In this document: one piece after another, positions 1,841 through 26,903 of the stretch | Position numbering within the stretch: the first letter of the stretch is position 1 | Layout of the letters: every line of letters begins with the position of its first letter | Assembly (NCBI GenBank): GCA_014384025.1 | Contig: JACNGQ010000176.1 | Location: forward strand, 1-32,979 | DNA: 32,979 bases | Source: Planctomycetota bacterium | GTDB taxonomy: Bacteria; Planctomycetota; Phycisphaerae; Sedimentisphaerales; Anaerobacaceae | Direction of reading: 5' to 3' | The notes under the pieces: model-generated | What the model saw: only the letters and a program-made list of their open reading frames with translations | The model's database searches: none | Told to the model about the DNA's origin: nothing | Position numbers and translations under genes: made by a program

Positions 1841-2413
1841 ATGATGGAAACTAATCTCAAGGTTATGTCACAGTCACAATTAGCCAAAGCAGTCTTGAAT
1901 GAAAGCGGCCAGAATGTGAACCTGTGCTATCAATGCAGGAAGTGTGCTGCGGGCTGTCCGATATCTTATGCGATGGACTATAAACCCGCCCAGATTATAC
2001 ACGCAATCCGGCTTGGTTTGGACGATCTTGTGTACAAGAGCAAGACTATGTGGTTGTGTGCATCTTGTGAGACGTGCACAACGAGGTGTCCTCAAGAGGT
2101 CGATATTGCGAAAGTGATGGATGCCGTGAAGATAACAGCAGTGAAGCAGGGTATTAAACCCACTATCCCGCAAGTGGCCTCTTTTTACAGGGCAGCGCTT
2201 TCCAATATCAAAATGTTCGGGCGGATGTACGAGATGGGGATGATAGTTGGCCTTAAGATGAGGACTTTCGAGTTATTCAAAGACGTCGGACTGGGAATGA
2301 AACTGTTCACAAAAGGCAAGCTCAAGGTGATTCCCAGTTTTACCGGTGCATTAAGAACTTGGAAGATTTTTAATCGGGTAAAGAGCATCGAAAACAGGGA
2401 GAGCAAAATATAA
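1841..2413 (+). CDS. hdrC: Heterodisulfide reductase subunit C-like ferredoxin
   Basis: Cytoplasmic electron carrier of 190 residues that passes electrons from HdrA to HdrB. Two complete [4Fe-4S] motifs are visible: C29, C32, C35, C39-Pro and C73, C76, C79, C83-Pro, with the usual spacing of HdrC and GlpC-type ferredoxins. The C-terminal 100 residues are helical and basic, as in HdrC proteins that dock on HdrB. The start is one of two adjacent ATG codons; AGGAG at 1822-1826 is somewhat distant (14 bases), so a start at the second ATG or at Met9 is not excluded. It is the first gene of the long cluster and hdrB follows after 86 bases. Family assignment is firm; the physiological disulfide or other acceptor is not known. 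Confidence 0.93.
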   Translation: MMETNLKVMSQSQLAKAVLNESGQNVNLCYQCRKCAAGCPISYAMDYKPAQIIHAIRLGLDDLVYKSKTMWLCASCETCTTRCPQEVDIAKVMDAVKITAVKQGIKPTIPQVASFYRAALSNIKMFGRMYEMGMIVGLKMRTFELFKDVGLGMKLFTKGKLKVIPSFTGALRTWKIFNRVKSIENRESKI

Positions 2414-2499
2414 CGTAAAACATTTGATAATAAACAAATTAATATGTTTTTGGGAAATTTGTATTTCCTAAATGGTATGTCCTGGGAGGTCAGCATACG

Positions 2500-3360
2500 A
2501 TGACAGCAAAATACGCTTATTATCCGGGTTGCTCACTTCACTCGACCGGCTCTGAATACGATATATCATTTCGGGCCGTTTGTGAAAAGCTTGGTATGGA
2601 TATTCAAGAGATCGAGGGGTGGATTTGCTGCGGCACCTCTCCCGCTCATAGTTCGTCCAGGCTTTTGTCGCTCGCACTTCCTTTTGAAAATCTCTGTCAG
2701 GCGGAGAAAATGGGTTTTAAAGACATTATCGCCCCATGTGCCGCCTGTTTTGCGAGATTGCGGACTGCGATGTATGAAGCGAACGAGGACGCTGAGATAG
2801 CTTCTCAGATTAGTGAGGCCCTTGAAAAGCCGCTGCCAAAATCGATGAATGTTTTAAGCCCCATTGAGATATTCTGTAACCGGGAAGGTCTGGCTGAGGC
2901 GGTTACAAAGCAGTTACCCGAATTAAAGGTTGTGTGTTATTACGGCTGCCTTCTAACCAGGCCTTCGAAGGTAATGCAGTTTGACGAGTGCGAGTATCCG
3001 ATGGCTATGGACAATCTGCTTCGCTCGCTGGGAATTGAAACACTTGACTGGTCTTATAAGACCGAATGCTGCGGCGGGGCTCTTGCTATGACCCGCACTG
3101 ACGTGGTTCTTAAGTTGACGCACGATATACTTGAGGAAGCCAAGGCGGTAGGTGCAAACGCTATCGCTGTTGGATGTCCGTTATGTCATGTCAATCTGGA
3201 CACACGGCAGACGGAGGTTGAGCAGGAATACGGAGTTCAGTACGGTCTGCCGGTATTTTACTTCACACAACTGATGGGGCTGGCAATGGGCTTGGCCGGC
3301 GACAAATTGGGATTGCAGAAACATTTTGTCAGTACGGACGGATTATTGTCCGGTGTTTGA
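2500..3360 (+). CDS. hdrB: Heterodisulfide reductase subunit B-like, two intact CCG domains
   Basis: The catalytic partner of HdrC, 286 residues. Both cysteine-rich CCG domains are complete: C11, C43-C44, C80, C83 (YYPGC, ICCG, PCAAC) and C150, C190-C191, C226, C229 (YYGC, ECCGG, GCPLC). In methanogen HdrB these residues hold two non-cubane [4Fe-4S] clusters that split the CoM-S-S-CoB disulfide. The host is probably not a methanogen, so the real substrate is unknown; a different disulfide or use as an electron relay are options. The ATG at 2500 is preceded by GGGAGG at 2482-2487. It lies between hdrC and the HdrA/NuoE fusion, as expected for subunits made together. Confidence 0.93.
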   Translation: MTAKYAYYPGCSLHSTGSEYDISFRAVCEKLGMDIQEIEGWICCGTSPAHSSSRLLSLALPFENLCQAEKMGFKDIIAPCAACFARLRTAMYEANEDAEIASQISEALEKPLPKSMNVLSPIEIFCNREGLAEAVTKQLPELKVVCYYGCLLTRPSKVMQFDECEYPMAMDNLLRSLGIETLDWSYKTECCGGALAMTRTDVVLKLTHDILEEAKAVGANAIAVGCPLCHVNLDTRQTEVEQEYGVQYGLPVFYFTQLMGLAMGLAGDKLGLQKHFVSTDGLLSGV

Positions 3361-3401
3361 GAAGGACAGCTTTTCTTGGAATAGAAACGGGAGGCAAATA
3401 A

Positions 3402-4280
3402 GTGATTCAGACAACAGATAAAAAGGTTGGTGCTGTTCTCGTGGTTGGCGGCGGCGTCGGAGGTATGCAGGCTTCGCTCGATCTGGCTGAAGGGGGTTAT
3501 AAGGTCTATTTAGTCGAAAAGGGGCCGTCTATCGGCGGGGTGATGGCACAGCTTGACAAGACGTTCCCGACTAACGACTGCGCGATGTGTACTCTTGCGC
3601 CGCGCATGGTCGATTGCGGCGGGCACATGAATATCGAGAAAATGACCTACTCCGAGATAGAATCAATCGAAGGCTCAGCGGGCAATTTCAAGGTCCGCGT
3701 CAGGAAAAAGGCACGCTACGTTGATCCGGAAAAGTGTACGGGCTGCGGAGAATGTGTTGAGAGCTGTCTTGTTAGAAACATTGTCTATATAGATCAGCCG
3801 GGCCGTGCGCCGGTTCAGATTGAAGAAGACGTGCGAGTCAAGGTGGATGACATTCTGAACAGATATTCAGGCGGCCGTGAAATCATCGTTCCGATTCTTC
3901 ACGATATTAATGAGGAGTTCAGGTGGCTGCCTCCGGAGGTCCTCTGTCGAATAGCCGAGGTAACCGAGATTCCTATCGAGCACATCCTGCGGATTGCAAG
4001 CTTCTACAATGCCTTCAGTCTTAAGCCGAAGGGAAAGCATGTCATCCGTGTCTGTACCGGAACAGCGTGCTATGTCAAAGGTGCACAGCGTATTTTGGAT
4101 ACATTTTCGAGGGAACTGGAGGTCGAAGTAGGGGACGTAACGGATAACGGGCAGTTCAGCCTGGAGACCGTCAATTGTGTGGGTTGCTGCGGCCAGTCGC
4201 CTGTAATCACGGTCGATGATGATATATACGGATATGTGAACCAGACTATGGTCACCGGCGTGCTCGGGAAGTACACATAG
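3402..4280 (+). CDS. HdrA N-terminal half fused to NuoE-like [2Fe-2S] subunit
   Basis: A 292-residue fusion. Residues 10-125 match the first part of the HdrA flavin domain: GGGVGG FAD loop at 16-21, the signature NDCAMCTLAPRMVDCGGH (58-75) and one ferredoxin motif C112, C115, C118, C122. HdrA stops there, and residues 143-292 form a NuoE/HndA thioredoxin-like domain with [2Fe-2S] ligands C218, C223, C259, C263. The rest of a typical HdrA, beginning with the conserved DxGLxxRxxIYxPFxQAxP segment, is found instead in the 1083-residue protein at 9284-12535. The start is GTG at 3402, after GGGAGGCAAATA. The NuoE part should pair with the NuoF encoded at 4691. The fusion is read directly; the idea that two proteins rebuild one HdrA is inference. 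Confidence 0.9.
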   Translation: MIQTTDKKVGAVLVVGGGVGGMQASLDLAEGGYKVYLVEKGPSIGGVMAQLDKTFPTNDCAMCTLAPRMVDCGGHMNIEKMTYSEIESIEGSAGNFKVRVRKKARYVDPEKCTGCGECVESCLVRNIVYIDQPGRAPVQIEEDVRVKVDDILNRYSGGREIIVPILHDINEEFRWLPPEVLCRIAEVTEIPIEHILRIASFYNAFSLKPKGKHVIRVCTGTACYVKGAQRILDTFSRELEVEVGDVTDNGQFSLETVNCVGCCGQSPVITVDDDIYGYVNQTMVTGVLGKYT

Positions 4281-4293
4281 GAAGGAGAAAAAA

Positions 4294-4677
4294 ATGTCTA
4301 AGATTAAACCTGAGGACCTCGACAAGATCGGAGAAAAGATCAAGAGGACAATGCTTCTTAGAGAAGGCTCGTGCCGGGTGAAGATCATCGTCCATATGGG
4401 GACATGCGGAATTGCGGCCGGTGCAAGAAACGTCATGAAAGCTTTGATGGATGAGATCGAGAAGGCGGAATCGAAAGACATTCTTCTGACAATCTCGAGT
4501 TGTGCAGGACTTTGCAGCAGTGAGCCTATGATAACGATAGAAGAAAAAGACAAGCCGGCGGTGAAGTATGTTGAGCTTACTGCCGAGAAGGCAAAGGCAA
4601 TCTTTGCCGGTCATGTCCTTGGCGGTAAGATTGTGAACGAATACGCGCTTGCGGCCGGGAGCGAGAGAACGCTTTAA
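4294..4677 (+). CDS. HndB-like thioredoxin-fold [2Fe-2S] ferredoxin
   Basis: A 127-residue protein with the HndB hallmarks GTCGIAAGAR (C38) and SCAGLCSSEP (C70, C74). In NADP-reducing and bifurcating [FeFe] hydrogenases HndB is an extra [2Fe-2S] subunit that sits with the NuoF-like HndC. Residues 1-25 are a charged helix. Only three of the four classical ligand positions are cysteine, which is usual for this family because the second position is Ala in GTCGIAAGA; Cys27 is an additional cysteine. The ATG at 4294 follows AAGGAG after 13 intergenic bases, and the stop codon overlaps the ribosome binding site of nuoF. It presumably forms part of the NAD(H) module with NuoE and NuoF. Confidence 0.88.
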   Translation: MSKIKPEDLDKIGEKIKRTMLLREGSCRVKIIVHMGTCGIAAGARNVMKALMDEIEKAESKDILLTISSCAGLCSSEPMITIEEKDKPAVKYVELTAEKAKAIFAGHVLGGKIVNEYALAAGSERTL

Positions 4678-4690
4678 GGAGATTGCAACG

Positions 4691-6472
4691 ATGCCACATA
4701 TTACGAACGTAATGATTTGCACTTGCACAAATTGCATATCGAACGGCGCTCTTGATATACGGGATTCACTGGATGCACAGATTAAGCGGCAGGGATTGCA
4801 GGATGATGTCCTTGTCGTACCGACAGGAGCAAGTGGTCTTTGTGTCAATGGGCCTATCCTGATAGTGCAGCCAGAAGGAATTTTCTACCAGAAACTCAAG
4901 GGCAAAGACATTCCGAATCTTGTTGAGGAGCATTTTCTAAAAGGCCGGCCGGTAAAGAGCCTGATGTATGTTCCTCCGGGAGAAGAAAGCCCGATTCCTG
5001 AGCTTCGATCGATTCCGTTTTTCAAGGACCAGCGGCTGATTGCGCTTCGTAACCGGGGACTGATCGATCCGGACAAGATCGATGAGTATATTGCCAGGGA
5101 CGGTTACAAGGCACTGGCAAAGGCAGTGACATCTATGACGCAGGAAGAAGTCATCAAAGAAATATCCGATTCAGGCCTGCGGGGACGTGGTGGTGCAGGG
5201 TTTCCAACGGGACGTAAATGGGACAGTAGAAGGAAAGACCCAAGGACGCCTAAGTACGTGGTTTGTAATGCCGACGAGGGTGATCCGGGCGCATTTATGG
5301 ACAGGAGCATCGTCGAAGCGGATCCGCACTCGGTGATTGAAGGAATGGCTATCGGAGCATATGCAGTGGGAGCGTCGAGCGGGTATATGTATCTGCGAAT
5401 GGAGTATCCACTTGCCGTCAAAAGAATACAACTGGCGATAGAGCAGGCCAGAGAGTACGGCTTGCTGGGCAAAGATATCTTTGGCAGCGGTTTTGATTTT
5501 GACTTGCAGGTATTTAAGGGTGCCGGGGCATTTGTATGTGGTGAGACGACCGCTCTTGTCGCTTCTATTGAAGGCAAGATTCCTGAGCCGAGACAAAGAC
5601 CTCCACGGACGACCCTATGGGACAAGCCGGTCGTTATCAACAACGTTGAGACCTGGGCAAATGTCCCTGTGATTTTAAACTGGGGGGCAAAATGGTTTGC
5701 GGAGATCGGAACCGAGAAAAGCAAGGGAACCAAAGTCTTCTCGCTGGCGGGGAATATCAATAATGCAGGTCTTGTGGAGGTGCCAATGGGCATAACCCTT
5801 CGGGATATTGTCTATAATATCGGAGGTGGTATTCCCAAAGGCAAGGAGTTCAAGGCTGTTCAGACAGGCGGGCCTTCCGGCGGCTTTCTTCCGGCCAGTC
5901 TGCTCGATTTATCGGTTGACTATGAGCAACTGGATGAGGCCGGGTCTATGATGGGTTCCGGCGGTATGGTAGTGATGGACGAGAATGTTTGTATGGTCGA
6001 AATGGCCAGGTATTTCGTTGCATTCACAAATGACGAATCCTGCGGCAAATGCACTTCCTGCCGAGAGGGTTCCCTTGCACTTCTTGAGATTTTGAGCAGG
6101 ATGTGCAATGGAGAGGGAAAGCCTGGAGATATCGAGTTACTCGAAGAATTGGGAGAGGCAATCAGAGATGCTTCTCAGTGCGGATTAGGGCAAAGCCTTC
6201 CCAACCCGGTATTGAGCTCCCTGGAACACTTCCGAGACGAATATAAAGCCCATATTGATGAAAAGAGATGTCCGGCGGGATTATGCAAGGCTTTAATCAC
6301 ATTTAATATTAGTGAAGAGAAATGTATAGGATGTCGGTTGTGCGCCAAGAAATGTCCCCAGGAGGCCATATCGGGAGAGGCCAAAGAGCTGCATACAATC
6401 GATCAGGATAAATGTATCAAATGCGGAGTTTGTCTCGACGCATGTAAGTCTGAAGCGGTATTAGTAGCATGA
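4691..6472 (+). CDS. nuoF: NuoF/HndC-type NAD(H)-binding flavoprotein subunit
   Basis: The 593-residue FMN protein that exchanges electrons with NAD(H). Domains in order: thioredoxin-like domain (1-95); NuoF core with GLRGRGGAGFPTGRKW (162-177) and ADEGDPGAFMDR (194-205) for FMN and NADH, and GAGAFVCGETTAL (277-289); the [4Fe-4S] motif CGKCTSCREG (451-460) with C497; and two C-terminal ferredoxin motifs (C545-C555 and C575-C585 regions). In the N-terminal domain the usual CxxxC reads ASGLC, so the third ligand is Ala47 rather than Cys; C10, C15 and C51 remain and C12 is extra. The start at ATG 4691 follows AAGGAG at 4677-4682; a longer frame from a TTG at 4649 has no site of its own and would overlap the preceding gene. 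The gene belongs to the bifurcating NADH module, not to respiratory complex I. Confidence 0.95.
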   Translation: MPHITNVMICTCTNCISNGALDIRDSLDAQIKRQGLQDDVLVVPTGASGLCVNGPILIVQPEGIFYQKLKGKDIPNLVEEHFLKGRPVKSLMYVPPGEESPIPELRSIPFFKDQRLIALRNRGLIDPDKIDEYIARDGYKALAKAVTSMTQEEVIKEISDSGLRGRGGAGFPTGRKWDSRRKDPRTPKYVVCNADEGDPGAFMDRSIVEADPHSVIEGMAIGAYAVGASSGYMYLRMEYPLAVKRIQLAIEQAREYGLLGKDIFGSGFDFDLQVFKGAGAFVCGETTALVASIEGKIPEPRQRPPRTTLWDKPVVINNVETWANVPVILNWGAKWFAEIGTEKSKGTKVFSLAGNINNAGLVEVPMGITLRDIVYNIGGGIPKGKEFKAVQTGGPSGGFLPASLLDLSVDYEQLDEAGSMMGSGGMVVMDENVCMVEMARYFVAFTNDESCGKCTSCREGSLALLEILSRMCNGEGKPGDIELLEELGEAIRDASQCGLGQSLPNPVLSSLEHFRDEYKAHIDEKRCPAGLCKALITFNISEEKCIGCRLCAKKCPQEAISGEAKELHTIDQDKCIKCGVCLDACKSEAVLVA

Positions 6473-6834
6473 TTTTGAAAGATATACAAAAGATACTGGA
6501 AGCGGAAGTCATCGTGGGCGATGATCTGCTGGGTGAAGATATAACAATAGCTTGCGGGTGTGACTTAATGAGCGATGTTTTGTCTTTTGTGAAGCCTGGA
6601 GCACTTTTGTTGACCGGTTTGATTAATCCGCAGGTGGTTCGTACTGCAGAAATGGCGGACCTGCGGGCAATATGCTTTGTTCGGGGAAAAAGGCCCGCTC
6701 AGGAGACTATTGAATTGGCTCAATCCAAGAGTATCCCGTTATTGACGACGCCTCTGCTGCTATTCGAGTCTTGCGGTCGATTACACCGAGAAGGACTTTC
6801 CGGTTGCTCTGAAAATAAGAAGAAAATCAAATAG
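6469..6834 (+). CDS. DRTGG-domain protein (first copy)
   Basis: A 121-residue stand-alone DRTGG-type domain, a small alpha/beta module otherwise found in phosphotransacetylase and CBS-containing regulatory proteins. Recognisable elements are GEDITIACGCDLMSDVLSF (21-39), where the signature DRTGG is degenerate, and the following GALLLTG and INPQVVRTAEMADL strands. It shares layout with the second copy at 7777, so the two look like paralogues. The start ATG overlaps the nuoF stop (ATGA), implying translational coupling. The domain has no catalytic residues and is thought to bind a small ligand; the ligand is unknown. DRTGG genes accompany bifurcating hydrogenase operons in clostridia and Thermotogales, which makes a regulatory role in hydrogenase control likely but unproven. 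Confidence 0.75.
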   Translation: MILKDIQKILEAEVIVGDDLLGEDITIACGCDLMSDVLSFVKPGALLLTGLINPQVVRTAEMADLRAICFVRGKRPAQETIELAQSKSIPLLTTPLLLFESCGRLHREGLSGCSENKKKIK

Positions 6835-6845
6835 GATTTTTTCAA

Positions 6846-7790
6846 GTGACTCCAGATAACAAAATAAGCAGGATTCAGGAATTAGTCTATGAGATTAGGA
6901 TAGGCGAAGTAATGCAGAGTGATGTCATTACGATTAGTCCGCAGACCCATATGAGTGAGCTAAGGAAGATTTTACGGGAGAAACGCATCTCCGGAGCGCC
7001 TGTAATGGACGGGGATGAAATGGTGGGTATCATCAGTATCGAGGATTTTATTAAGTGGCTGGCCGATAGGGAGCACGATTGCCCCATTAGTGAGAAGATG
7101 AGCAAAGATGTTCAAACTCTTTATGCCGATGAGCCGTTGACCCAGGCGGTCAACAAATTCGAGCGTTTTGGTTTCGGCCGATTTGCCGTTATTGACCGCC
7201 AGAGCAGGCGGCTTCTTGGCATAATCACCAAGGGGGATATAGTTGAGGGCCTGCTCAAAAAGCTGGAGATCGACCACTATAAAGAAGAGGAAGAGATTTA
7301 CTGTCGACGAGTTGAGCATTTTTTCGAGGATATTCTTGCGGACAAAGTGGTGCTTTTATTTCAATATGATGTAGCGGGACACGATTTCAAACGGGCAGGA
7401 GAAGGCGCCAGCCGGCTAAAGGCCTCCTTAAAACGCCTGGGCCTGGATCCTCAGATAGTCCGCCGGGTTGCGATTGCTACATACGAAGCAGAGATGAACC
7501 TGGTCATCTATACCGATGGCGGCCAGATTCGAGCGCGTGTTGAACCGCATGAGATTTTTGTAAAAGTGGCGGATTCCGGACCGGGGATCCCCGATATCCA
7601 GAAGGTTTTGCAGCCGGGTTATTCAACCGCTCCGGAGTGGGTTAGAAACTTAGGTTTTGGAGCCGGTATGGGCCTGAACAATATCTTCAAGTGTGCCAGT
7701 AAGATGGAATTGAAATCTGTCGTAGGCAAAGGAACGCAATTGTATATTCGTATCGACACCAAAGATGGAGCTATGAGTGAAACTAACTGA
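6846..7790 (+). CDS. CBS-pair protein fused to RsbW-like ATPase
   Basis: A 314-residue signalling protein. Residues 19-75 and 82-138 form two CBS domains (IGEVMQSDVITISP and ISEKMSKDVQTLY, with GIISIEDF and GIITKGDI ends), which as a pair usually bind adenosine nucleotides. Residues 165-305 are a GHKL ATPase of the anti-sigma/serine-kinase kind: N-box YEAEMNLVIY (213-222), DSGPGIPD (243-250), GFGAGMGL (270-277) and GKGTQLYI. There is no histidine phosphoacceptor domain, so it is closer to RsbW/SpoIIAB than to a sensor kinase. The GTG start at 6846 has only AGGA upstream. An energy-charge signal could be sensed by the CBS pair and passed to the kinase. No anti-anti-sigma partner is seen in the window. 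Confidence 0.85.
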   Translation: MTPDNKISRIQELVYEIRIGEVMQSDVITISPQTHMSELRKILREKRISGAPVMDGDEMVGIISIEDFIKWLADREHDCPISEKMSKDVQTLYADEPLTQAVNKFERFGFGRFAVIDRQSRRLLGIITKGDIVEGLLKKLEIDHYKEEEEIYCRRVEHFFEDILADKVVLLFQYDVAGHDFKRAGEGASRLKASLKRLGLDPQIVRRVAIATYEAEMNLVIYTDGGQIRARVEPHEIFVKVADSGPGIPDIQKVLQPGYSTAPEWVRNLGFGAGMGLNNIFKCASKMELKSVVGKGTQLYIRIDTKDGAMSETN

Positions 7791-8121
7791 ATTAATACAG
7801 AAGTTAAACTTGAGCGTCAGGTCGGCAAAAACGCACTTGGATCGCGAGGTTACCGGGGGCTATGCGAGCGATTTGCTTAGTGATGTCCTTGCTAATAGCG
7901 AAGAAGGAAACCTTTGGATTACTTTACAGATTCATCAGAATATCGTGGGTGTGGCCAGTATGAAAGACCTGGCTGGAATTATATTGGTAAATAACAGAGA
8001 ACCTGAGCCGGAAACCCTGGAGAAAGCAGAATTAGAAAAATTACCGATTATGGTAACCGAGATGCCGACCTTTGAACTGGTCGGCAAGCTCTATAGTTTG
8101 GGAATTGTCGGAACGAAATAA
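7777..8121 (+). CDS. DRTGG-domain protein (second copy)
   Basis: A 114-residue DRTGG domain with a clearer signature than the first copy: REVTGGYASDLLSDVLAN (24-41), then GNLWITLQIHQNIVGVA and PIMVTEMPTFELVGKLY. The GTG start at 7777 sits inside the end of the CBS-ATPase gene (14-base overlap) with GGAG at 7767-7770 ahead of it. The stop shares a base with the ATG of the PHP gene, so translation is probably coupled. As for the first copy, a ligand-binding or protein-binding regulatory role is the best guess; no enzyme activity is expected. Confidence 0.8.
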   Translation: MKLTELIQKLNLSVRSAKTHLDREVTGGYASDLLSDVLANSEEGNLWITLQIHQNIVGVASMKDLAGIILVNNREPEPETLEKAELEKLPIMVTEMPTFELVGKLYSLGIVGTK

Positions 8122-8837
8122 TGAGGAAAGTAAGAGCCGACCTGCATCTGCATACTTGCCTTTCTCCCTGTGCCGACAATCAGATGCAGCCAGCAGCTAT
8201 AATCGAGCGGTCTAAAAAAGCAGGTTTGGATATGATAGGTATATGTGATCATAATTCTGGTGAGAATGTAAGGGCGATGATGAAAGCCGGTGAGCGGCAG
8301 GGCATTGCGATTATTCCTGGTGTTGAGGTTACCTCGCGGGAGGAAGTGCATATCCTCGGACTGTTCGACACCGAGCAGGACCTGATGCGCCTTCAGGATA
8401 TTATCTATGAAAACCTGCCCGGCCAAAACGATGAGGAGGCCTTCGGCCCTCAGCTAATCATTGACGAATACGGTAATGTGGTGGGTCAGAATTCCAGGCT
8501 TTTGATAGGAGCGACAACCCTGACCTTAGAGCAGATTATCGATGCGATTCACCAATTCGCCGGACTGGCTGTTGCCTCTCACATCGATCGCCAGCGATTC
8601 AGCCTGATTGGCCAGTTGGGTTTCATCCCCAAAGGATTGAAGCTGGATGCCGTGGAGGTTTCGATCCCGTCCTCGGTCAGGCAGGAGTATGACTATCCGG
8701 TTGTAACTTCTTCCGATGCTCATTTTCTGGAAGACATCGGAAAGAATTCCACTTGTTTTATGATAGAGGATACATCGTTACAGGAGATTTCAAAAGCGTT
8801 GCGCTGTGAGCTGGGAAGGATGGTCGTAAGCAATTGA
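8121..8837 (+). CDS. PHP-domain metal-dependent phosphoesterase
   Basis: A 238-residue PHP-superfamily protein related to TrpH/YciV-type phosphatases. The metal-binding motifs are present in order: DLHLHTCLSPC (H9, H11), CDHNSGEN (D43, H44), PGVEVTSREEVHIL (E69, H77), ASHIDR and SSDAHF. The family hydrolyses 3',5'-bisphosphonucleosides, 5'-ends of RNA or small phosphate esters; the substrate here is unknown. An internal segment of about 45 residues (LPGQNDEEAFGPQ to NSRLLIGATTL) distinguishes the form that travels with hydrogenase operons. The start ATG overlaps the preceding stop by one base (TAATG). Its constant company of DRTGG and ATPase genes suggests a place in the same signalling pathway, possibly removing a nucleotide signal. 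Confidence 0.85.
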   Translation: MRKVRADLHLHTCLSPCADNQMQPAAIIERSKKAGLDMIGICDHNSGENVRAMMKAGERQGIAIIPGVEVTSREEVHILGLFDTEQDLMRLQDIIYENLPGQNDEEAFGPQLIIDEYGNVVGQNSRLLIGATTLTLEQIIDAIHQFAGLAVASHIDRQRFSLIGQLGFIPKGLKLDAVEVSIPSSVRQEYDYPVVTSSDAHFLEDIGKNSTCFMIEDTSLQEISKALRCELGRMVVSN

Positions 8838-9296
8838 ATGGAAGATTTGTCGCTGCACATTCTGGACATTGCTGAAAACTCGATTAACGGAGCGGCAAGG
8901 ACAATTGAAATTATAATCGATGAAGACAGAGAGAAAGACTTGTTGACTGTTGAGATTAAAGATGATGGTAAGGGCATGGACCAAAAGACTCTGAAAAAAG
9001 CTCTTGATCCGTTTTTCACTACACGCAAGACTCGCAGAGTCGGCCTGGGGCTGTCCTTACTGGCTCAGGCGGCCGAACAGAGCGGCGGCAAGATGGAGCT
9101 GAACTCTATACCAGACGTGGGAACGACGGTCAGGGCGACGTTTCGCATGAGCCATCCGGACTGCAAACCTATGGGTGACATTAATGAGACAATGCGCATG
9201 TTGGTTGCAGGGCATCCTGAGATTAATTTCGTTTACGAACATCATAAAGACAATTCAAAATACCGTTTTGACACGAGAGAAGCATGCAGAAAATGA
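8838..9296 (+). CDS. Stand-alone GHKL ATPase (anti-sigma/histidine-kinase-like)
   Basis: A 152-residue GHKL ATPase without sensor or phosphoacceptor domains. Visible motifs are the N-box DIAENSINGAA (10-20), DDGKGMD (42-48) and GLGLSLL (69-75), then the GTTVRATF strand. The C-terminal 45 residues (from HPDCKPMGD) are an extra segment often seen in hydrogenase-linked copies. The ATG directly abuts the stop of the PHP gene, and the 3' end overlaps the start of the 1083-residue HdrA fusion by 13 bases, so the signalling cassette is hard-wired into the operon. It may phosphorylate a serine or histidine in a partner; no target is visible here. Confidence 0.82.
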   Translation: MEDLSLHILDIAENSINGAARTIEIIIDEDREKDLLTVEIKDDGKGMDQKTLKKALDPFFTTRKTRRVGLGLSLLAQAAEQSGGKMELNSIPDVGTTVRATFRMSHPDCKPMGDINETMRMLVAGHPEINFVYEHHKDNSKYRFDTREACRK

Positions 9297-12200
9297 TTAC
9301 TCTAACAATTGACAACAAAAAAGTTGAGGTTGAAGAAGGCTCAACCGTTCTTCAGGCCGCAGAGAAGCTCGGTATTAAAATTCCTACTCTTTGCCACCAC
9401 AGGTCTTTGTTGCCCTACGGTGCGTGCCGTGTCTGTCTGGTCGAATTAAAAAAATCGTGGGGTTCAAGCATTCAGGCTTCCTGTGTTTATGCTGCAGAGG
9501 AGGGATTGGTCGTACGAACTGATTCAGAGAGAGTCTTGAAGACCCGCCGGATGATGCTCGAATTGCTATTGGCCCGTTGCCCGGATTCGCCCCGGATAGT
9601 AGAAATGGCCAGGGAGATGGGCATCGAGGAACCTCGCTTTCAAAAGAAGAACGATAACTGCATCCTATGCGGACTCTGTACAAGAGTATGCGAGGAAAGG
9701 ATGGGTGTCGGCGCCATCAGCTTTGTCAACAGAGGTTCGGAACGAAAGGTCGCTGTTCCGTACGACAAGCATTCTCCTATTTGTATGACATGCGGGGCCT
9801 GCACGGTTGTCTGCCCGACCAATGATGTGGACCTATCCAAAGTATCACTTAACAAACCAAGGCCAGTAATGTCCGATTATGATATGGGTCTTGTCCAAAG
9901 GTCTTCCATTTATATACCTTTCGCCCAGGCAATACCTAAGGTAGCGCTGATTGACAAAACAACCTGTATGCACTTCCTTAATGATACGTGCAAATCCTGT
10001 GAGAATTTCTGTGAAGCCGGAGCTATCGACTATGAACAGCAGGATGAAATCGAGGAGCTGGATGTCGGTGCCGTTGTCCTGTCGCCGGGATTTGAGCAAT
10101 TTGATCCGGACCTCAAAAAGGAACTCGGCTACTCGAGGTATTCCAATGTCCTGTCCAGCCTTCAGTTCGAACGGATTCTTTCGGCCAGCGGACCGTACCT
10201 CGGAAAGGTCCTGCGTATCTCCGATGAAAAAGCCCCCGGGAAGATTGCATGGATACAGTGTGTCGGCTCCAGAGAAGTAGAGTGCAACTATTGCTCCTCG
10301 GTCTGTTGTATGTATGCGACCAAGGAGGCTATTATTGCCAAGGAGCACGCCCCCGACCTCGATTGCACAATCTTTTTCATTGATATGCGCGCCTATGGCA
10401 AAGGATTTGACGCCTATTACGAACGTGCAAAGGGGCTTGGCGTTAAATATATTCGCTGTCGTCCCTCTTCGGTGAAAGAGGACTCCAAAACAAAGAACCT
10501 CAAAATCACATATCAGGCCGCTGACGGCGAAATACTAACAGATGAGTTTGGCATGGTAGTCCTTTCAACAGGTTTAAGACCTCCGGCGGAGGTCCGCGAA
10601 CTTGCGGATAAATTCGGAATCGAGCTTGATCAACATGGTTTTGCCGCCACGCTTCCTATGGCACCGGTTGAGACCTCAAAGGCCGGTGTTTATGTTTGCG
10701 GGCCTTTTGCTTCGCCGAAAGATATCCCTGAAACGGTCATGGAGGCCTCCGCAGGCGCTGCCAAGGCGATGGCGCTGCTTACGGAGCAGCGGAATACTCT
10801 AATCACGCATAAAGAATATCCACCTGAAATGGATGTTGCCGGCAAGGAGCCGCGCATCGGCGTGTTTGTATGTCACTGCGGCAGAAATATCGGCGGAGTC
10901 GCCGATGTGCCAAATGTAGTCGAATATGCCAAAACTCTGCCGAATGTCGTCTATGCAGCGCATAATCTATATACGTGCTCGACCGATACTCAGGATAATA
11001 TAAAAGAAATGATTGCCGAGCACGACCTGAATCGCATAATAGTGGCTTCGTGCAGTCCGAGAACTCACGAACCGCTTTTCCGCAATACGTGTCGAGAGGC
11101 CGGGCTTAATGAATACCTCTTTGAAATGGCTAATATTCGTGACCAGTGTACCTGGGTGCACATGCATCAGCCGGAAATGGCCACTCAAAAATCAAGAGAC
11201 CTTGTCAGGATAGCTGTTGCCAAATCAAGAATGCTCGAACCTCTGAAAAAGGGAACTCTTAAGGTCAATAACGATGCCCTGGTAATCGGCGGCGGCATCG
11301 CCGGAATGACGGCGGCAATTAATCTGGCGGATCAGGGATTTAAGGTGCATCTCGTTGAAAACCAGGAGCAATTGGGCGGCAACCTTAATCATATACACAG
11401 CCTGCTAAGCGGCGACCCACAGCAAAAGCTCAAAAGCACTATTGAGAAGGTCAACGCCCATCCTAATATAGATGTGCATCTGAAAAGCATTGTATCTGCG
11501 GTTGATGGTTCGGTTGGTAATTTCAAGTCAACAATCCAGCATAACGGCGATGGAAAACAGGTCTCTCACGGTGTCGTTATCGTCGCCACCGGAGCTGAGC
11601 AATACGAACCGACCGAGTATCTCTACGGCAAAAACCCCCGCGTTCTTACCCAGCGGACATTTGAGCAGTGGCTGTCCGAGGACAAGGCCGAGCTTAAAAA
11701 GGCTAAATCCATTGTGATGATTCAATGCGTTGGTTCACGAGACGAGGACCGTCCATATTGCAGCCGCGTCTGCTGCTCGGAAGCAATTAAGAATGCGATT
11801 GTCATTAAGAAAAAGCAGCCTGAGACTGATGTTTACATTCTCTACCGTGACATAAGAACATACGGCCTGCTTGAAGAATACTATACAGAAGCAAGACGTA
11901 TAGGTGTACGCTTCATCCGCTATGAAGAAGACAAGAAGCCTGAGGTCTCAGCCAATAATGGCAGCTTCTCAGTTTCCTGTTTTGATCCCGTTCTCAATGC
12001 ACCGGTTACGATAAACTCTGATTTGGTTGTGCTCGCTGCAGCGATAGTACCGGGCGAGACCCTTAGTGAAGTCGGAAAATTATACAAGTTGTCACTCAAT
12101 CAGGACAAGTTCTTCCTGGAAGCGCACATGAAGCTCAAACCGGTCGATTTTGCCACCGACGGTGTTTTCATGTGCGGCTTGGCGCACTGCCCGAAATCAA

Positions 12201-12535
12201 TCGAAGAAAGCATCGCCCAGGCGGATGCGGCCGCAGGCCGTGCCGCAACTATTCTGTCCAAAGACGAAATCGAGCTGGACGCTAATATTTCAGAAATCGT
12301 GGACGATAACTGTGACGGCTGTGCATATTGCATCGATCCGTGCCCGTATAACGCATTGACGCTTATTGAATATATGCTCAAAGGCGATATTAAGAAGACC
12401 GTTGAAAGAGATGCGGCATTGTGCAAAGGCTGTGGTGTGTGTCAGGCTACGTGTCCGAAAAAAGGAGTATTTATTCGCAGTTTCAAGCTTGAGCAATTAG
12501 GTGCAATGGTTGAAGCCGCGCTGGAAACAGGCTAA
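9284..12535 (+). CDS. NuoG-N / ferredoxin / HdrA C-half / complete HdrA fusion
   Basis: A 1083-residue multi-domain electron carrier. Residues 1-80: NuoG/HydA-type [2Fe-2S] domain with C37, C48, C51, C67. Residues 120-185: two [4Fe-4S] motifs (C126, C129, C132, C136; C167, C170, C173, C177). Residues 195-500: second half of an HdrA, starting at SDYDMGLVQRSSIYIPFAQA and with QCVGSRE (325-331), but without its own FAD loop. Residues 524-1083: an HdrA with CHCGRNIGG (530-538), CSPRTHEP (590-597), FAD loop GGGIAG (669-674), QCVGSRDEDRPYCSRVCC (814-831) and two terminal [4Fe-4S] motifs (C1010-C1020; C1047-C1057); the inserted ferredoxin of methanogen HdrA is absent. The His-Cys cluster of NuoG is not conserved and there is no [FeFe] H-cluster. 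It should be the hub linking hydrogenase, NAD(H) and HdrBC. ATG 9293 is an alternative start. Confidence 0.93.
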   Translation: MQKMITLTIDNKKVEVEEGSTVLQAAEKLGIKIPTLCHHRSLLPYGACRVCLVELKKSWGSSIQASCVYAAEEGLVVRTDSERVLKTRRMMLELLLARCPDSPRIVEMAREMGIEEPRFQKKNDNCILCGLCTRVCEERMGVGAISFVNRGSERKVAVPYDKHSPICMTCGACTVVCPTNDVDLSKVSLNKPRPVMSDYDMGLVQRSSIYIPFAQAIPKVALIDKTTCMHFLNDTCKSCENFCEAGAIDYEQQDEIEELDVGAVVLSPGFEQFDPDLKKELGYSRYSNVLSSLQFERILSASGPYLGKVLRISDEKAPGKIAWIQCVGSREVECNYCSSVCCMYATKEAIIAKEHAPDLDCTIFFIDMRAYGKGFDAYYERAKGLGVKYIRCRPSSVKEDSKTKNLKITYQAADGEILTDEFGMVVLSTGLRPPAEVRELADKFGIELDQHGFAATLPMAPVETSKAGVYVCGPFASPKDIPETVMEASAGAAKAMALLTEQRNTLITHKEYPPEMDVAGKEPRIGVFVCHCGRNIGGVADVPNVVEYAKTLPNVVYAAHNLYTCSTDTQDNIKEMIAEHDLNRIIVASCSPRTHEPLFRNTCREAGLNEYLFEMANIRDQCTWVHMHQPEMATQKSRDLVRIAVAKSRMLEPLKKGTLKVNNDALVIGGGIAGMTAAINLADQGFKVHLVENQEQLGGNLNHIHSLLSGDPQQKLKSTIEKVNAHPNIDVHLKSIVSAVDGSVGNFKSTIQHNGDGKQVSHGVVIVATGAEQYEPTEYLYGKNPRVLTQRTFEQWLSEDKAELKKAKSIVMIQCVGSRDEDRPYCSRVCCSEAIKNAIVIKKKQPETDVYILYRDIRTYGLLEEYYTEARRIGVRFIRYEEDKKPEVSANNGSFSVSCFDPVLNAPVTINSDLVVLAAAIVPGETLSEVGKLYKLSLNQDKFFLEAHMKLKPVDFATDGVFMCGLAHCPKSIEESIAQADAAAGRAATILSKDEIELDANISEIVDDNCDGCAYCIDPCPYNALTLIEYMLKGDIKKTVERDAALCKGCGVCQATCPKKGVFIRSFKLEQLGAMVEAALETG

Positions 12536-12553
12536 TAGAGGAGTTTGTTTAAT

Positions 12554-12973
12554 ATGGCAGACGAAGAAACGTTTGAACCGGTAATTGTTGGTTTTTGTTG
12601 CAACTGGTGTTCGTATGCAGGGGCTGATCTCGCCGGGGTCTCCCGGTATCAGTATCCTCCGAACCTGAGGATTATACGAGTTATGTGCTCGGGAATGGTG
12701 CACCCGAATCTGGTCATAGATGCTTTAACAAAAGGTGCAGATGGGGTTCTGATTTGCGGCTGTCATATCGGAGACTGTCACTACCTTGACGGTAATGTTA
12801 AAGCTGAGAACCGAAAGGAAGCAATAGAGCTTATGTTGGAAGATTTCGGCATAGAACCTGAACGATTCAGGCTCGAGTGGGTATCCGCATCTGAGGGGCC
12901 CAGGTTCGCCGAGGTGATCCGGGAAATGACCGAGGCTGTTCGTGCGCTGGGTCCCAGTATGTATAAGGTTTGA
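12554..12973 (+). CDS. mvhD: MvhD-type [2Fe-2S] adaptor of hydrogenase and HdrA
   Basis: A 139-residue MvhD/FlpD protein, the [2Fe-2S] link that carries electrons from the [NiFe] hydrogenase to the HdrA C-terminus in methanogens. Cysteines at FCCNWC (15, 16, 19), VMCSG (45) and CGCHIGDCH (68, 70, 75) fit the family, as does GMVHPNLVIDAL. I place the start at ATG 12554 because AGAGGAG at 12537-12543 lies ten bases before it; a frame opened by a TTG at 12545 is too close to that site. It follows the HdrA fusion by 18 bases and precedes the hydrogenase genes, as expected for its linking role. Confidence 0.94.
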   Translation: MADEETFEPVIVGFCCNWCSYAGADLAGVSRYQYPPNLRIIRVMCSGMVHPNLVIDALTKGADGVLICGCHIGDCHYLDGNVKAENRKEAIELMLEDFGIEPERFRLEWVSASEGPRFAEVIREMTEAVRALGPSMYKV

Positions 12974-13802: not shown

Positions 13803-14756
13803 GTGCCTGTAAAAGTAGCAGAAGAATGGCTGAACATCTGTGGAGGATGTGAGGTCACAATACTGGACATAGGCGAGCCGCTGCTTGACCTGCTGCCTGA
13901 GCTCGATTTTGTCCATATGCCCGTATTGATGGACCATAAGTATTTTGGTCAAACAGGAGAAAAGGAAGAGATGGAGATCCCCGAGGCTGATGTGGGGATA
14001 ATCTCAGGAGGTGTACGGAACGAGAAGGAAAAGCATGTTACCGAGGAAATGAGAAAAAAGTGCAAAACCCTTATTGCCCTTGGCTCATGTGCATGCTATG
14101 GCGGAATTCCCGCCCTGGCGAATATGTTTCCTCTTGAAGCCCTGTACGACAAAGTCTTCAGAGAATCGAAGACTACGGATGCCGGTGATACACCTAAAGA
14201 GAATCTTCCTCCTCTATTGGACAGGGTGTACGCAGTAGATGAGATTGTGCCTGTGGATGTATATATTCCAGGTTGTCCTACAAATCCTGATATTGTTGTC
14301 AAGGCCCTCACCGCACTTTTGGAAGGCAAAGAGTTCAAGCTTGAAGAGAGAAGTGTCTGCGACGAGTGTCCGCTTAAGCGGGAAAAGAAGGCTGCGGGCG
14401 GCCAGATTAAAAGAACGCTTGATTCGGTGGAGTTCGACCAAAGTAAGCCCTGGGATCAGACCAGGTGCTATATGGAACAGGGCTATTTATGTCTTGGGCC
14501 TGTCACCCTGGCGGGCTGTGGGAGTAAAGAAGGAAACGGTGACGGTGTAACAGTCCCTCGCTGCATAAAAGGGTTTATGCCGTGCCGGGGATGCTTCGGT
14601 CCGATTCGTAAAGGTGCAAATCCTTTGGTTGACATGATGACTGCGATTTCATCTATAGGGCTGGATGCAAAACAGGTTCCCGACAGACGTGCATTGCTAA
14701 ACAGGTATATTGGTGCTCAAAAACGACTTAGGCCGTTGCCTGTGCGTCCAAAGTAG
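13803..14756 (+). CDS. mvhG: [NiFe] hydrogenase small subunit, MvhG type
   Basis: The 317-residue electron-transferring small subunit of a cytoplasmic group 3 [NiFe] hydrogenase. The proximal cluster ligands are C13, C16 (NICGGCE), C96 (GSCACYGG) and C158 (PGCPTNP). A second set (C186, C189, C222, C230) and third set (C239, C254, C261, C264) provide the medial and distal [4Fe-4S] clusters. No Tat signal peptide is present, which fits a cytoplasmic enzyme. The start is GTG at 13803, behind a very strong AAAGGAGGT at 13788-13796; no in-frame ATG is nearby. mvhA follows after 15 bases. The match to the MvhG/HoxY-like branch with mvhD and hdrA next door points to group 3c. Confidence 0.95.
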   Translation: MPVKVAEEWLNICGGCEVTILDIGEPLLDLLPELDFVHMPVLMDHKYFGQTGEKEEMEIPEADVGIISGGVRNEKEKHVTEEMRKKCKTLIALGSCACYGGIPALANMFPLEALYDKVFRESKTTDAGDTPKENLPPLLDRVYAVDEIVPVDVYIPGCPTNPDIVVKALTALLEGKEFKLEERSVCDECPLKREKKAAGGQIKRTLDSVEFDQSKPWDQTRCYMEQGYLCLGPVTLAGCGSKEGNGDGVTVPRCIKGFMPCRGCFGPIRKGANPLVDMMTAISSIGLDAKQVPDRRALLNRYIGAQKRLRPLPVRPK

Positions 14757-14771
14757 AAAGGATGTATAAAT

Positions 14772-16214
14772 ATGAAAACAATTACAATAGCCCCAGTAAC
14801 CAGAATTGAGGGCCATGCCAAGGTAACCATTAACCTTGATGACAGCGGTAATGTGGCGGATACTTTTGTTAACGTGGTGGAGCTTCGCGGTTTTGAGAAG
14901 TTCTGTATTGGAAGGCCTGTAGAGGAACTCCCGCGTATTGTAACGAGTATCTGTGGGGTGTGTCCGTGGCACCATCACCTGGCGTCGGCGAAGGCCAACG
15001 ACGTGGTCTTCGGCGTAACACCGCCGCCTACGGGGGCAAAGCTCAGGGACCTCTGCCAGAGCATCGCCTTCTGCTCGGACAAGATACTTCACTTCTTCAT
15101 CTTGGCCGGCCCGGACTTTGTGATGGGCCCGGATAGTGATTATTCTGTGAGAAACGTTATAGGAATAGCCCAGGCAAATCCCGAAATAGGCAAGAAAGTC
15201 ATTCGCAACCGGCACCTTGGCACACAGATGCTCAACATAATTTCAGGGAAGGCTATTCACCCGGTCACTGCAGTACCGGGCGGATTCAGTAAGCCTCTGA
15301 CAGAGGCCGAACGGGAAAAAGTTGTTCCCATGGCAAACGAAGTGCTGGAGTTTGCAAAGTTTGCTATAGCATTCGCCAAGGAGAACGTCTTCCCCAAGTA
15401 CCTCGACGCCATTAAAACCTTGGGCGTGATTGAGACCGGTTTCCTGGGGACCGTGGCCGAAGACGGAACGCTTGAACTATACGACGGCAAGGCTCGATTG
15501 ATGAAGCCTGACGGTTCATACGAAGAGTTCCCATATGATCAATACACTGAGTATATTGGAGAACATATCGAGCCCTGGACATACCTCAAGTTTCCTTATG
15601 CCAAAAAATGGGGTGATTTTTCGATGGATCTCGATAATCCGTCGGGGATATACCGCACGAACACCCTTGCTCGTATCAATGTTTGCGATAAGATGGCAAC
15701 GCCGTTGGCGCAAGCGGAGCTCGAAGAGTTCCGGGCGAGCTTTGGACGGCCCGCCCAGCAAACACTGCTCTACAACTACGCGAGACTGATCGAGCTGGTT
15801 TACAACGCCGAGCATGTCATTGAGCTCCTGAACGACCCGGAGATTACCGGGAAGGAGATACGCGTTCCGGTTACGCCGCGAGCTGCAAGGGGTATTGGTT
15901 GTGTTGAGGCGCCAAGAGGGACCTTGATTCACGATTATGAGACCGATGAGAACGGGCTGATTACCAACGTCAATCTGATTGTCGGTACTACCCACAACAA
16001 TGCCCCAATCAATATGTCCGTTAAGCAGACGGCGAAAGCACTGATAAAGGACGGTAATTACGACCAGGGAATCCTCAACAGGGTCGAAATGGCCATACGG
16101 GCCTACGATCCGTGCCTGTCCTGCGCAACGCACAAACTGGATGGCAGTGTTCCTGTGAAGGTTGAAGTTCGGGATGCTCGTGGGAAACTAATCGACACTA
16201 TTGCAAATTGGTAA
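14772..16214 (+). CDS. mvhA: [NiFe] hydrogenase large subunit, MvhA type, with C-terminal tail
   Basis: The 480-residue catalytic subunit that splits or makes H2 at a NiFe(CN)2CO centre. The N-terminal ligand pair is C61 and C64 in SICGVCPWHHH; TRIEGHA (10-16) is also a family mark. The C-terminal pair is C448 and C451 in DPCLSCATH. After His454 a tail of 26 residues (KLDGSVPVKV to IANW) remains, which in this family is cut off by an endopeptidase after nickel insertion; such a protease is encoded at 18327. The ATG at 14772 has AAAGGATG upstream. Together with mvhG, mvhD and hdrABC it makes a group 3c (Mvh/Hdr) hydrogenase. Other maturation genes (hypA-F) are not in the window. Confidence 0.96.
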   Translation: MKTITIAPVTRIEGHAKVTINLDDSGNVADTFVNVVELRGFEKFCIGRPVEELPRIVTSICGVCPWHHHLASAKANDVVFGVTPPPTGAKLRDLCQSIAFCSDKILHFFILAGPDFVMGPDSDYSVRNVIGIAQANPEIGKKVIRNRHLGTQMLNIISGKAIHPVTAVPGGFSKPLTEAEREKVVPMANEVLEFAKFAIAFAKENVFPKYLDAIKTLGVIETGFLGTVAEDGTLELYDGKARLMKPDGSYEEFPYDQYTEYIGEHIEPWTYLKFPYAKKWGDFSMDLDNPSGIYRTNTLARINVCDKMATPLAQAELEEFRASFGRPAQQTLLYNYARLIELVYNAEHVIELLNDPEITGKEIRVPVTPRAARGIGCVEAPRGTLIHDYETDENGLITNVNLIVGTTHNNAPINMSVKQTAKALIKDGNYDQGILNRVEMAIRAYDPCLSCATHKLDGSVPVKVEVRDARGKLIDTIANW

Positions 16215-18326: not shown

Positions 18327-18812
18327 ATGGGACCTGAGTGGTACGATAAATCTGTTCTTATACTGGGATGCGGCAATGTGTTGCTTGAGGATGACGGATT
18401 TGGTCCTGCCGTTGCTCAGCAGCTCCAGCGCGACTTCACAATTCCCTCCGATATCTGTGTCCTGGATACAGGAACTTCTGTTCGGGAGATACTCTTTGAT
18501 ACCATTCTTTCCGACAAGAAGCCGTCAAAAATCGTTATTATAGATGCGATGGATTGCGGCCTCGAACCGGGAGAACTCTTCAACCTGGACCTCGATTCTT
18601 ACCCAAAGGTTAAGCTCGACGACTTTTCCCTGCATCAGATACCCACATCGAATTTGCTTCGTGAGCTTCGTGACCTTTGCGGAATAGAAGTCAGCGTGGT
18701 TGCCTGCCAGGTGGCCGGAGCATGTGACAGTGTCAATCCCGGGCTTTCGGAACCTGTCAACAAAGCTGTCGGGCAGGCTGCCGAGATGATCGCCAAAGAC
18801 TATTTCAAATAG
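18327..18812 (+). CDS. [NiFe] hydrogenase maturation protease (HycI/HoxW/FrhD family)
   Basis: A 161-residue endopeptidase that removes the C-terminal tail of the hydrogenase large subunit once nickel is in place. The family motif GCGNVLLEDDGFG (14-26) carries the nickel-sensing acidic residue (D23 aligns with E16 of HybD). IIDAMDCG (71-78) gives D73, and FSLHQIPTSNLL gives H103, the other two nickel ligands. The start ATG at 18327 follows AAAAGGGTGG and is 12 bases after the receiver stop. The 26-residue tail on MvhA at 16137-16211 is the obvious substrate. Confidence 0.93.
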   Translation: MGPEWYDKSVLILGCGNVLLEDDGFGPAVAQQLQRDFTIPSDICVLDTGTSVREILFDTILSDKKPSKIVIIDAMDCGLEPGELFNLDLDSYPKVKLDDFSLHQIPTSNLLRELRDLCGIEVSVVACQVAGACDSVNPGLSEPVNKAVGQAAEMIAKDYFK

Positions 18813-24612: not shown

Positions 24613-24622
24613 AGCTTTGTCT

Positions 24623-26329: not shown

Positions 26330-26360
26330 TATAAACATCCCCTTTACGAACAAGTACTAT

Positions 26361-26846: not shown

Positions 26847-26903
26847 GTTTTTCCTCAATTTAATGTGTTATCTTCATAAACTGCTAATGTAAGCATCAAT
26901 CGG

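Follow-up and report, generated by a model that had tools for sequence, protein, structure and literature searches.

In methanogen HdrA, electrons of the low-potential branch of bifurcation reach free ferredoxin by way of the inserted ferredoxin. Two residues of Methanothermococcus HdrA, E356 and K409, have been published as markers of bifurcating HdrA (PMC12054007), and the two units of archaeal type II HdrA are not recent duplicates (Lyu et al., 2025, PMC12054007). For the Bam class II benzoyl-CoA reductase, Schut et al. (2022, PMC9304861) proposed serial action of Bfu and HdrA. Here, we analyzed a 32,979-nucleotide stretch of contig JACNGQ010000176.1 from a Planctomycetota bacterium (the window), in which open reading frame (ORF) 9284-12535 (+), also P0001, encodes a protein with NuoG-type and HdrA-type parts (chain G), and ORF 3402-4280 (+) encodes its candidate partner (chain E). 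Chain G is probably the hub of a soluble, hydrogen-linked and Bfu-coupled complex of the trans-split type II HdrA kind, which would bifurcate (or confurcate) electrons among NAD(H), H2, ferredoxin and a disulfide.

The ORF of chain G has a stop-free translation of 1083 amino acids. Pfam placed Fer2_4 at residues 2-81 (E 4e-19) and a terminal Fer4_7 at 1009-1060, and the HdrA2 profile NF040770 matched in three stretches (E 8e-253). The HdrA of PDB entry 5odc matched with E 2e-166: chain G residues 521-752 correspond to HdrA 2-235, residues 167-435 to HdrA 246-499, and residues 913-1078 to HdrA 487-648. This alignment showed that the first HdrA unit (HdrA1) is present in chain G as its C-terminal half only, while the second (HdrA2) consists of an N-terminal domain, an FAD domain and a terminal ferredoxin. 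The head holds ligands for one [2Fe-2S] cluster (C37/48/51/67) and two [4Fe-4S] clusters (C126-136, C167-177), and HdrA1 contributes the second motif of its inserted ferredoxin (C228/236/239/243); these Cys residues and those of the terminal motifs were invariant across 24 homologues. The E-values, together with homologues in several phyla, exclude a chance origin of this architecture. A first-pass annotation of the window had described a 1083-residue hub with a NuoG-type ferredoxin head, an HdrA second half, a second HdrA and two terminal [4Fe-4S] motifs, and the ORF, the profile and PDB matches and the invariant Cys residues bear out this description. However, its term "full" fits the second HdrA only in part, since both the inserted ferredoxin domain and Cys197 are missing from it.

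The half of HdrA1 that is missing from chain G was found in chain E, whose residues 12-132 match HdrA 143-263 (E 5e-46). The Cys197 equivalent, Cys63, lies in a KTFPTNDCAMC loop of this N-terminal half. The two halves are complementary: that of chain E stops in the middle of the inserted ferredoxin, where the HdrA1 part of chain G begins. Thus the split partner postulated in the first-pass annotation exists, as residues 1-130 of a NuoE-fused protein. In a normal two-cluster ferredoxin, both motifs supply ligands to each cluster. Because the split falls inside the inserted ferredoxin, its clusters would therefore be shared between the two chains.

The occurrence of the two halves was followed in homologue loci (numbered with L), which were fetched after a scan of a genome collection and then domain-mapped. 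The NuoG-HdrA1 C-half-HdrA2 protein was present in metagenome-assembled genomes of Planctomycetota, TA06, Elusimicrobia, Bacteroidetes, Gemmatimonadota, Hydromicrobium, Aminicenantes, Nitrospirae and Deltaproteobacteria. A separate HdrA N-half accompanied it in every one of the 20 loci whose upstream sequence is intact, the window included, and was fused to NuoE in 18 of them; at loci without one, the sequence stops at contig edges or N gaps. L075 and L057, considered as exceptions, were dismissed for their 100-N scaffold gaps. In a comparison of 18 loci, HdrA N-half distances correlated better with those of the HdrA1 C-half on the other chain (rho 0.75) than with those of NuoE on its own chain (rho 0.39), values that are not independent of phylogeny. 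The tree of the N-half also mirrored the groups of the C-half, with a main clade plus L063-type HdrL, L052 and L097 with deltaproteobacterial HdrL, and L105 with type I HdrA. In an even sample of 294 Planctomycetota genomes, five had a match spanning both parts of chain E, and in the plasmids searched no place covered 80% of the query. L105 has a single-HdrA version, which groups with type I HdrA: a separate 320-residue ORF (L105:2461-3420) carries the N-terminal domain and the FAD N-half, and a 588-residue chain (L105:9989-11752) carries NuoG, the HdrA C-half and a ferredoxin. By this architecture, the split occurs also without a second HdrA. Arrays of HdrC, HdrB, MvhD and free HdrA halves, A6- and A12-like, were seen at L058-L062, L064, L067, L068 and other Lokiarchaeota loci, with tandem HdrA proteins of about 1010 residues.

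The natural unsplit form is L097, a protein of 1259 residues with the order HdrA N-half, NuoG, HdrA1 C-half and HdrA2, so that the head stands between both halves. Its AlphaFold2 model had a mean predicted local distance difference test score (pLDDT) of 72.6 and a predicted template modelling score (pTM) of 0.74, with a pLDDT of about 25 in the NuoG part, which lacked alignment depth. Residues 8-655 of the model aligned with residues 149-576 of HdrA 8rwn_A (Z 45.4, root-mean-square deviation 2.5 A, 422 residues aligned), the NuoG part being looped out, and residues 674-1144 aligned with 2-564 of 5odh_A (Z 38.3, root-mean-square deviation 2.4 A). On these model alignments, both units appear able to adopt HdrA folds once the two halves are together. 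The domain content, the conserved key residues, the shared history of the HdrA1 halves and the complete one-chain HdrA1 fold are well supported.

We also analyzed the flavin sites. The numbering of E356 and K409 was reproduced by an HdrA sequence rebuilt from the PDB alignment, and the equivalents in the window are E296/K347 in HdrA1 and E794/K836 in HdrA2, the latter with cluster Cys 815/826/830/831. Loss of flavin-contacting residues in one of the HdrA parts, which would have spoken against two sites, was not seen: the E356 and K409 equivalents are present at both. Among NuoG-type proteins, the HdrA1 equivalents of E356 and K409 were each conserved in 32/32, while in HdrA2 K409 was conserved in 28/30 and E356 in 24/30, the rest having Asp. 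The marker residues of HdrA2 had drifted in the HdrL relatives (K409 in 5/15 and E356 in 6/15). By these counts the flavin of HdrA1 (FAD1) is more strictly constrained than that of HdrA2 (FAD2), a difference that is compatible with two bifurcation events but does not prove them. The units are also complementary in that Cys63 of chain E stands for Cys197, and HdrA2 has the N-terminal domain without Cys197.

HdrA1 and HdrA2 formed deep, separate clades in a tree of 113 rows, with 100% support in the quick tree and agreement in the careful one. The origins that the first-pass annotation had proposed to trace are thus separate and old, and a recent tandem duplication is ruled out. The same tree required six label changes for the NuoG-interrupted HdrA1, five of them forced by well-supported branches. 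A single common origin was rejected by the approximately unbiased test (p 1e-7) for 21 rows, a group picked by architecture, in a test that is blind to gain versus loss. L052 and L097 nest among the NfnB-bearing HdrL proteins, and NuoG and NfnB occupy the same insertion place. The slot in the inserted ferredoxin of HdrA seems to have been used repeatedly, in a tree that cannot separate gain from loss, and the NuoG head looks like a guest in an HdrA host, at the place of NfnB in HdrL. The earlier statement that HdrA replaces the H-cluster behind the NuoG head describes the chain correctly, although evolution seems to have run the other way, with the NuoG head entering HdrA. The genome to which the window belongs also has, at C222 (L002), an HdrL-type protein, NfnB-HdrA-HdrA, in an open frame of 1455 residues.

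The NADH module was compared with HydABC-type (Bfu) enzymes. NuoF matched HydB of bifurcating hydrogenases nearly end to end (7q4v_B, E 2e-233; 7t2r_B, E 3e-231), and all B2 ligands of 7t2r_B (C438/C476/H525/C531/C536) are retained, including the His that is diagnostic of Bfu. Chain E holds the four Cys ligands of the BfuC cluster C1 (PF01257, E 5e-46). The NuoG head has the Cys sets of clusters A1, A2 and A4 without A3 or A5, as in type 2 BfuA; apart from these sets, only a lone C99 precedes residue 190. Its best PDB match, aligned end to end, was 9mqx_A, the BfuA-like subunit of a bifurcating W-aldehyde oxidoreductase-Bfu. The Cys-to-Ala change in the B5 [2Fe-2S] site of NuoF is common to the window and five relatives, while many other relatives keep all four Cys; a B5 cluster might still form with further Cys nearby (CTCTNC). 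Because one B5 Cys is missing, we call the module Bfu-type or Bfu-like rather than a proven Bfu member. With its FMN-FeS site, NuoF brings a third flavin, at which bifurcation is also possible. The two HdrA flavin sites counted in the first-pass annotation are upheld by sequence, phylogeny and fold, but this count fell short of the flavins in the putative complex, to which the HydB/BfuB-type NuoF adds one.

Two further features of NuoF were observed. The N-terminal domain of NuoF in the window (4649-5100) shared 55% identity with that of L034, the closest relative, against 85% for the rest; its identity to the same domain of L039 and L070, both more distant by chain G, was 87-90%, and these two have the same B5 Cys-to-Ala state. 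This suggests that the N-terminal part may have been acquired by gene conversion or transfer. The NuoF proteins of L035, L040, L043, L050 and L055 (1023-1040 residues) have an extra GltD/NfnB-like flavoprotein domain that the window lacks, shown by Pfam for L040 only (Fer4_20 and Pyr_redox_2); a further flavin is possible there.

The genes for HdrC, HdrB, chain E, a small subunit, NuoF, a five-gene block, chain G and MvhD follow one another at 1841-12973 with gaps of at most 86 bp (Table 1). HdrB (two CCG domains), HdrC, MvhD, MvhG and MvhA thus accompany HdrA, and the gene order with HdrBC and MvhDGA is conserved across phyla; the first-pass annotation had not linked the complex to these genes of its operon. 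Between MvhD and MvhG/MvhA there is a 337-bp gap, with no scanned gene in it, and then a response regulator gene. The C-terminal ferredoxin of HdrA2 is the expected docking site of MvhD, and the genes of the five-gene block are likely regulatory. The closest relatives with names, at 94% identity, mark the genome as a metagenome-assembled planctomycete; it encodes acetyl-CoA synthase and Rnf. Subunits of a 2-oxoacid:ferredoxin oxidoreductase are encoded at 23743-26353 (-), adjoining a rubrerythrin-family gene at 26361-26858 (-).

Table 1. Coordinates of the features in the window (res, residues of the encoded protein).
Feature	Position	Strand	Remarks
HdrC, 4Fe-4S dicluster	1841..2413	+	
HdrB, two CCG domains	2500..3360	+	
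Chain E, 292 residues: HdrA1 N-half fused to NuoE/BfuC	3402..4280	+	
HdrA1 N-half, res 1-130	3402..3791	+	GGGVGG, Cys63 (=Cys197), first inserted-ferredoxin motif CTGCGECVESC
NuoE/BfuC thioredoxin-like [2Fe-2S] domain	3816..4277	+	C218, C223, C259, C263
Small thioredoxin-like 2Fe-2S-type subunit, HndB/HydD-like	4294..4677	+	from position and Pfam
NuoF, HydB/BfuB type	4649..6472	+	FMN domain; B1, B2 (Cys/His), B3, B4 ligands kept; B5 one of four Cys is Ala
Five-gene block: DRTGG, CBS+HATPase, DRTGG-like, PHP, HATPase	6469..9296	+	kept inside operon of relatives
Chain G: NuoG head, HdrA1 C-half, HdrA2, C-terminal 2[4Fe-4S] ferredoxin	9284..12535	+	
NuoG/BfuA-type head, res 1-189	9284..9850	+	[2Fe-2S] and two [4Fe-4S], without His-Cys cluster
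HdrA1 C-half, res 192-505	9857..10798	+	C228-243, E296 (=E356), K347 (=K409), cluster Cys 326/337/341/342
HdrA2, res 516-990	10829..12253	+	N-terminal FeS domain, FAD domain GGGIAG 669-674
HdrA2 C-terminal 2[4Fe-4S] ferredoxin	12254..12532	+	C1010-1020, C1047-1057
MvhD (FlpD)	12545..12973	+	
MvhG/VhuG, small [NiFe]-hydrogenase subunit	13803..14756	+	
MvhA/VhuA, large [NiFe]-hydrogenase subunit	14772..16214	+	ICGVC, DPCLSC nickel-ligand motifs
Hydrogenase maturation protease, HycI family	18327..18812	+	

From this anatomy we infer the membership of HdrBC and MvhADG in the complex, the assembly between chains, the direction of electrons and the number of bifurcating flavins. The HdrA1 of a type II HdrA would have been opened inside its inserted ferredoxin and have taken in a BfuABC (HydABC-type) NADH module; the opened unit would then have been split, its N-half staying with NuoE/BfuC in chain E and its C-half with NuoG/BfuA in chain G. 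FAD1 and the two clusters of the inserted ferredoxin would form between chains E and G, chain E would donate Cys197 as a ligand for the cluster of the HdrA2 N-terminal domain, and HdrA1 with HdrA2 would make up a heterodimer built into the complex (compare Chadwick et al., PMC9012536). Electrons from H2 would pass through MvhAG, MvhD and the C-terminal ferredoxin to FAD2/FAD1. The high-potential electrons would go through HdrC/HdrB to some (hetero)disulfide, and the low-potential electrons through the inserted ferredoxin of HdrA1 and the last NuoG [4Fe-4S] cluster to the FMN-FeS core of NuoF, and from there to NAD+ and ferredoxin. Reverse flow would also be possible.

Several points weigh against this bifurcating hub. 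The support for the complex comes from sequence and models, close homologues included, and the phylogeny shared by the loci enters the distance correlations of the N-half. Chain G modelled alone folded only moderately (AlphaFold2 pLDDT 67.8, pTM 0.56; weakest in the ferredoxin part of the head and much of HdrA1), as expected if a partner is needed, which is no proof of one. At E356/K409, HdrA2 varies more, and the KTFPTNDC loop is missing from it; FAD2 may therefore serve as a relay or not be there at all. Alanine replaces one of the four B5 Cys in NuoF, which sets it apart from the published Bfu core. DsrC was looked for in the genome and none was detected, and it was dropped as the acceptor of HdrBC. 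The 337-bp gap and the response regulator gene could mean that the hydrogenase is a separate enzyme. The operon would then encode two enzymes, one a Bfu-HdrA oxidoreductase with HdrBC, the other a hydrogenase of the MvhADG type that is independent of it, and L051, L052 and L097 do have the NuoG-HdrA protein with MvhA/MvhG undetected. We nevertheless regard this as unlikely: MvhD, the known connector of Mvh and Hdr, lies directly 3' of chain G, and in most loci of sufficient length, drawn from several phyla, MvhG follows, usually along with MvhA. It is highly improbable that the N-terminal domain of chain E binds nucleotide for some other purpose and that residues 192-505 of chain G are a degenerate, flavin-free HdrA remnant. 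The low model confidence of that segment in chain G alone would fit, but the halves are complementary, the catalytic residues invariant, the phylogenies matched and the co-occurrence constant, and L097 has both in one chain.

The number of bifurcating sites is a further point of choice. There is a real chance, rated somewhat below even, that only FAD1 bifurcates and HdrA2 is a relay flavin or a structural partner that gives the N-terminal cluster and the docking site of MvhD. The invariant markers of FAD1, the drift of those of FAD2 and the lack of Cys197 and of the inserted ferredoxin in HdrA2 agree with this; on the other hand, in the window and most of its clade HdrA2 retains E, K and the complete set of four cluster Cys, and Lyu et al. 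(PMC12054007) took such retention in the type II HdrA of archaea to indicate two possible sites. It is doubtful that the FMN-FeS core of Bfu is the only bifurcating site, with the tandem HdrA merely wiring H2 and HdrBC to it. NuoF keeps the B1-B4 ligands with the diagnostic His, the head matches type 2 BfuA in its clusters, and bifurcation with many third substrates has been proposed for Bfu enzymes; yet both HdrA sites keep their markers, for which a mere relay would have no need, the HdrBC genes imply a high-potential branch, and NuoF of the window is one B5 Cys short. Rather improbable, in our estimate, is bifurcation in series at the FMN-FeS site, the trans-assembled FAD1 and FAD2, hard-wired through the inter-chain ferredoxin, by which one enzyme would balance H2, NADH, ferredoxin and disulfide; if true, such a three-stage machine could push some electrons to unusually low potential.

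The closest known systems each share part of this architecture. Type II (tandem, A3/A4-like) HdrA of methane-metabolizing archaea likewise has two TrxR/FAD units of separate origins (PMC12054007, PMC9012536), the first without N- and C-terminal domains (A6-like), the second without the inserted ferredoxin (A12-like), with K409/E356 kept in both and Cys197 and the N-terminal domain complementary. The units of chain G also come from two separate HdrA lineages. However, the archaeal proteins have two FAD/TrxR domains in one polypeptide, whereas chain G has one and a half and chain E the rest, each polypeptide being fused to an NADH-module subunit, with a NuoG head in the inserted-ferredoxin slot and a bacterial operon containing NuoF and MvhADG. 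In HdrA3/4 of anaerobic methanotrophic archaea (ANME), the Cys197 and N-domain units stand in the opposite order (Chadwick et al., 2022, PMC9012536). In HdrL, or type III HdrA, an NAD(P)H module is likewise flanked by the two motifs of the inserted ferredoxin (Strittmatter et al., 2009, PMC2702500; PMC12054007; PMC9012536), but there the guest is NfnB (GltD) in one chain, while here it is NuoG, with NuoE and NuoF, in a chain that is cut. Neither GltD nor Fer4_20 was among the families listed for chain G, which has the NuoG head at that site.

The BfuB/BfuC core and a BfuA head without A3/A5 are shared with type 2 Bfu (HydABC) enzymes, including Bam-Bfu (PMC9304861). Unlike in Bam-Bfu, BfuA and BfuC are each fused to an HdrA half, and the partners are HdrBC and MvhADG instead of a benzoyl-CoA reductase; no tungsten-oxidoreductase (BamB) family was found among the scanned proteins of the window, a scan that left out a few minor ORFs. 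The arrangement was not found among the Bfu types in the accessible part of Schut et al. (2022, PMC9304861). Methanogen HdrABC-MvhADG brings together the same HdrA, HdrB, HdrC, MvhD, MvhG and MvhA homologues (5odc; PMC5861303, PMC9012536), but the window has two HdrA units and an NADH module, and coenzyme M/coenzyme B are not expected in a bacterium. The nuoEFG-mvhD-hdrA clusters of Desulfotignum phosphitoxidans also have NADH-module genes beside HdrA and MvhD; the accessible part of that report (PMC4046663) describes them at the gene level and reports no fusion or split.

Each module is known, and the accessible literature yielded no trans-split HdrA with both halves fused to an NADH module, though an earlier report may exist. 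If the proposed complex is real, two polypeptides jointly build a bifurcating flavin site and likewise a 2[4Fe-4S] ferredoxin, and NAD(P)H modules of different kinds have repeatedly entered one and the same slot of HdrA, NfnB in HdrL and NuoG/Bfu here. The inserted ferredoxin of HdrA would then be a modular docking port, giving a simple rule to predict the carriers of uncharacterised HdrA complexes. The known and new forms make up a natural series, from the uninterrupted tandem through the NfnB insert, the one-chain NuoG insert and the split NuoG insert to the single-HdrA split of L105, in which one versus two HdrA bifurcation events can be tested by comparing enzymes, the same question that has been raised for class II benzoyl-CoA reductase.

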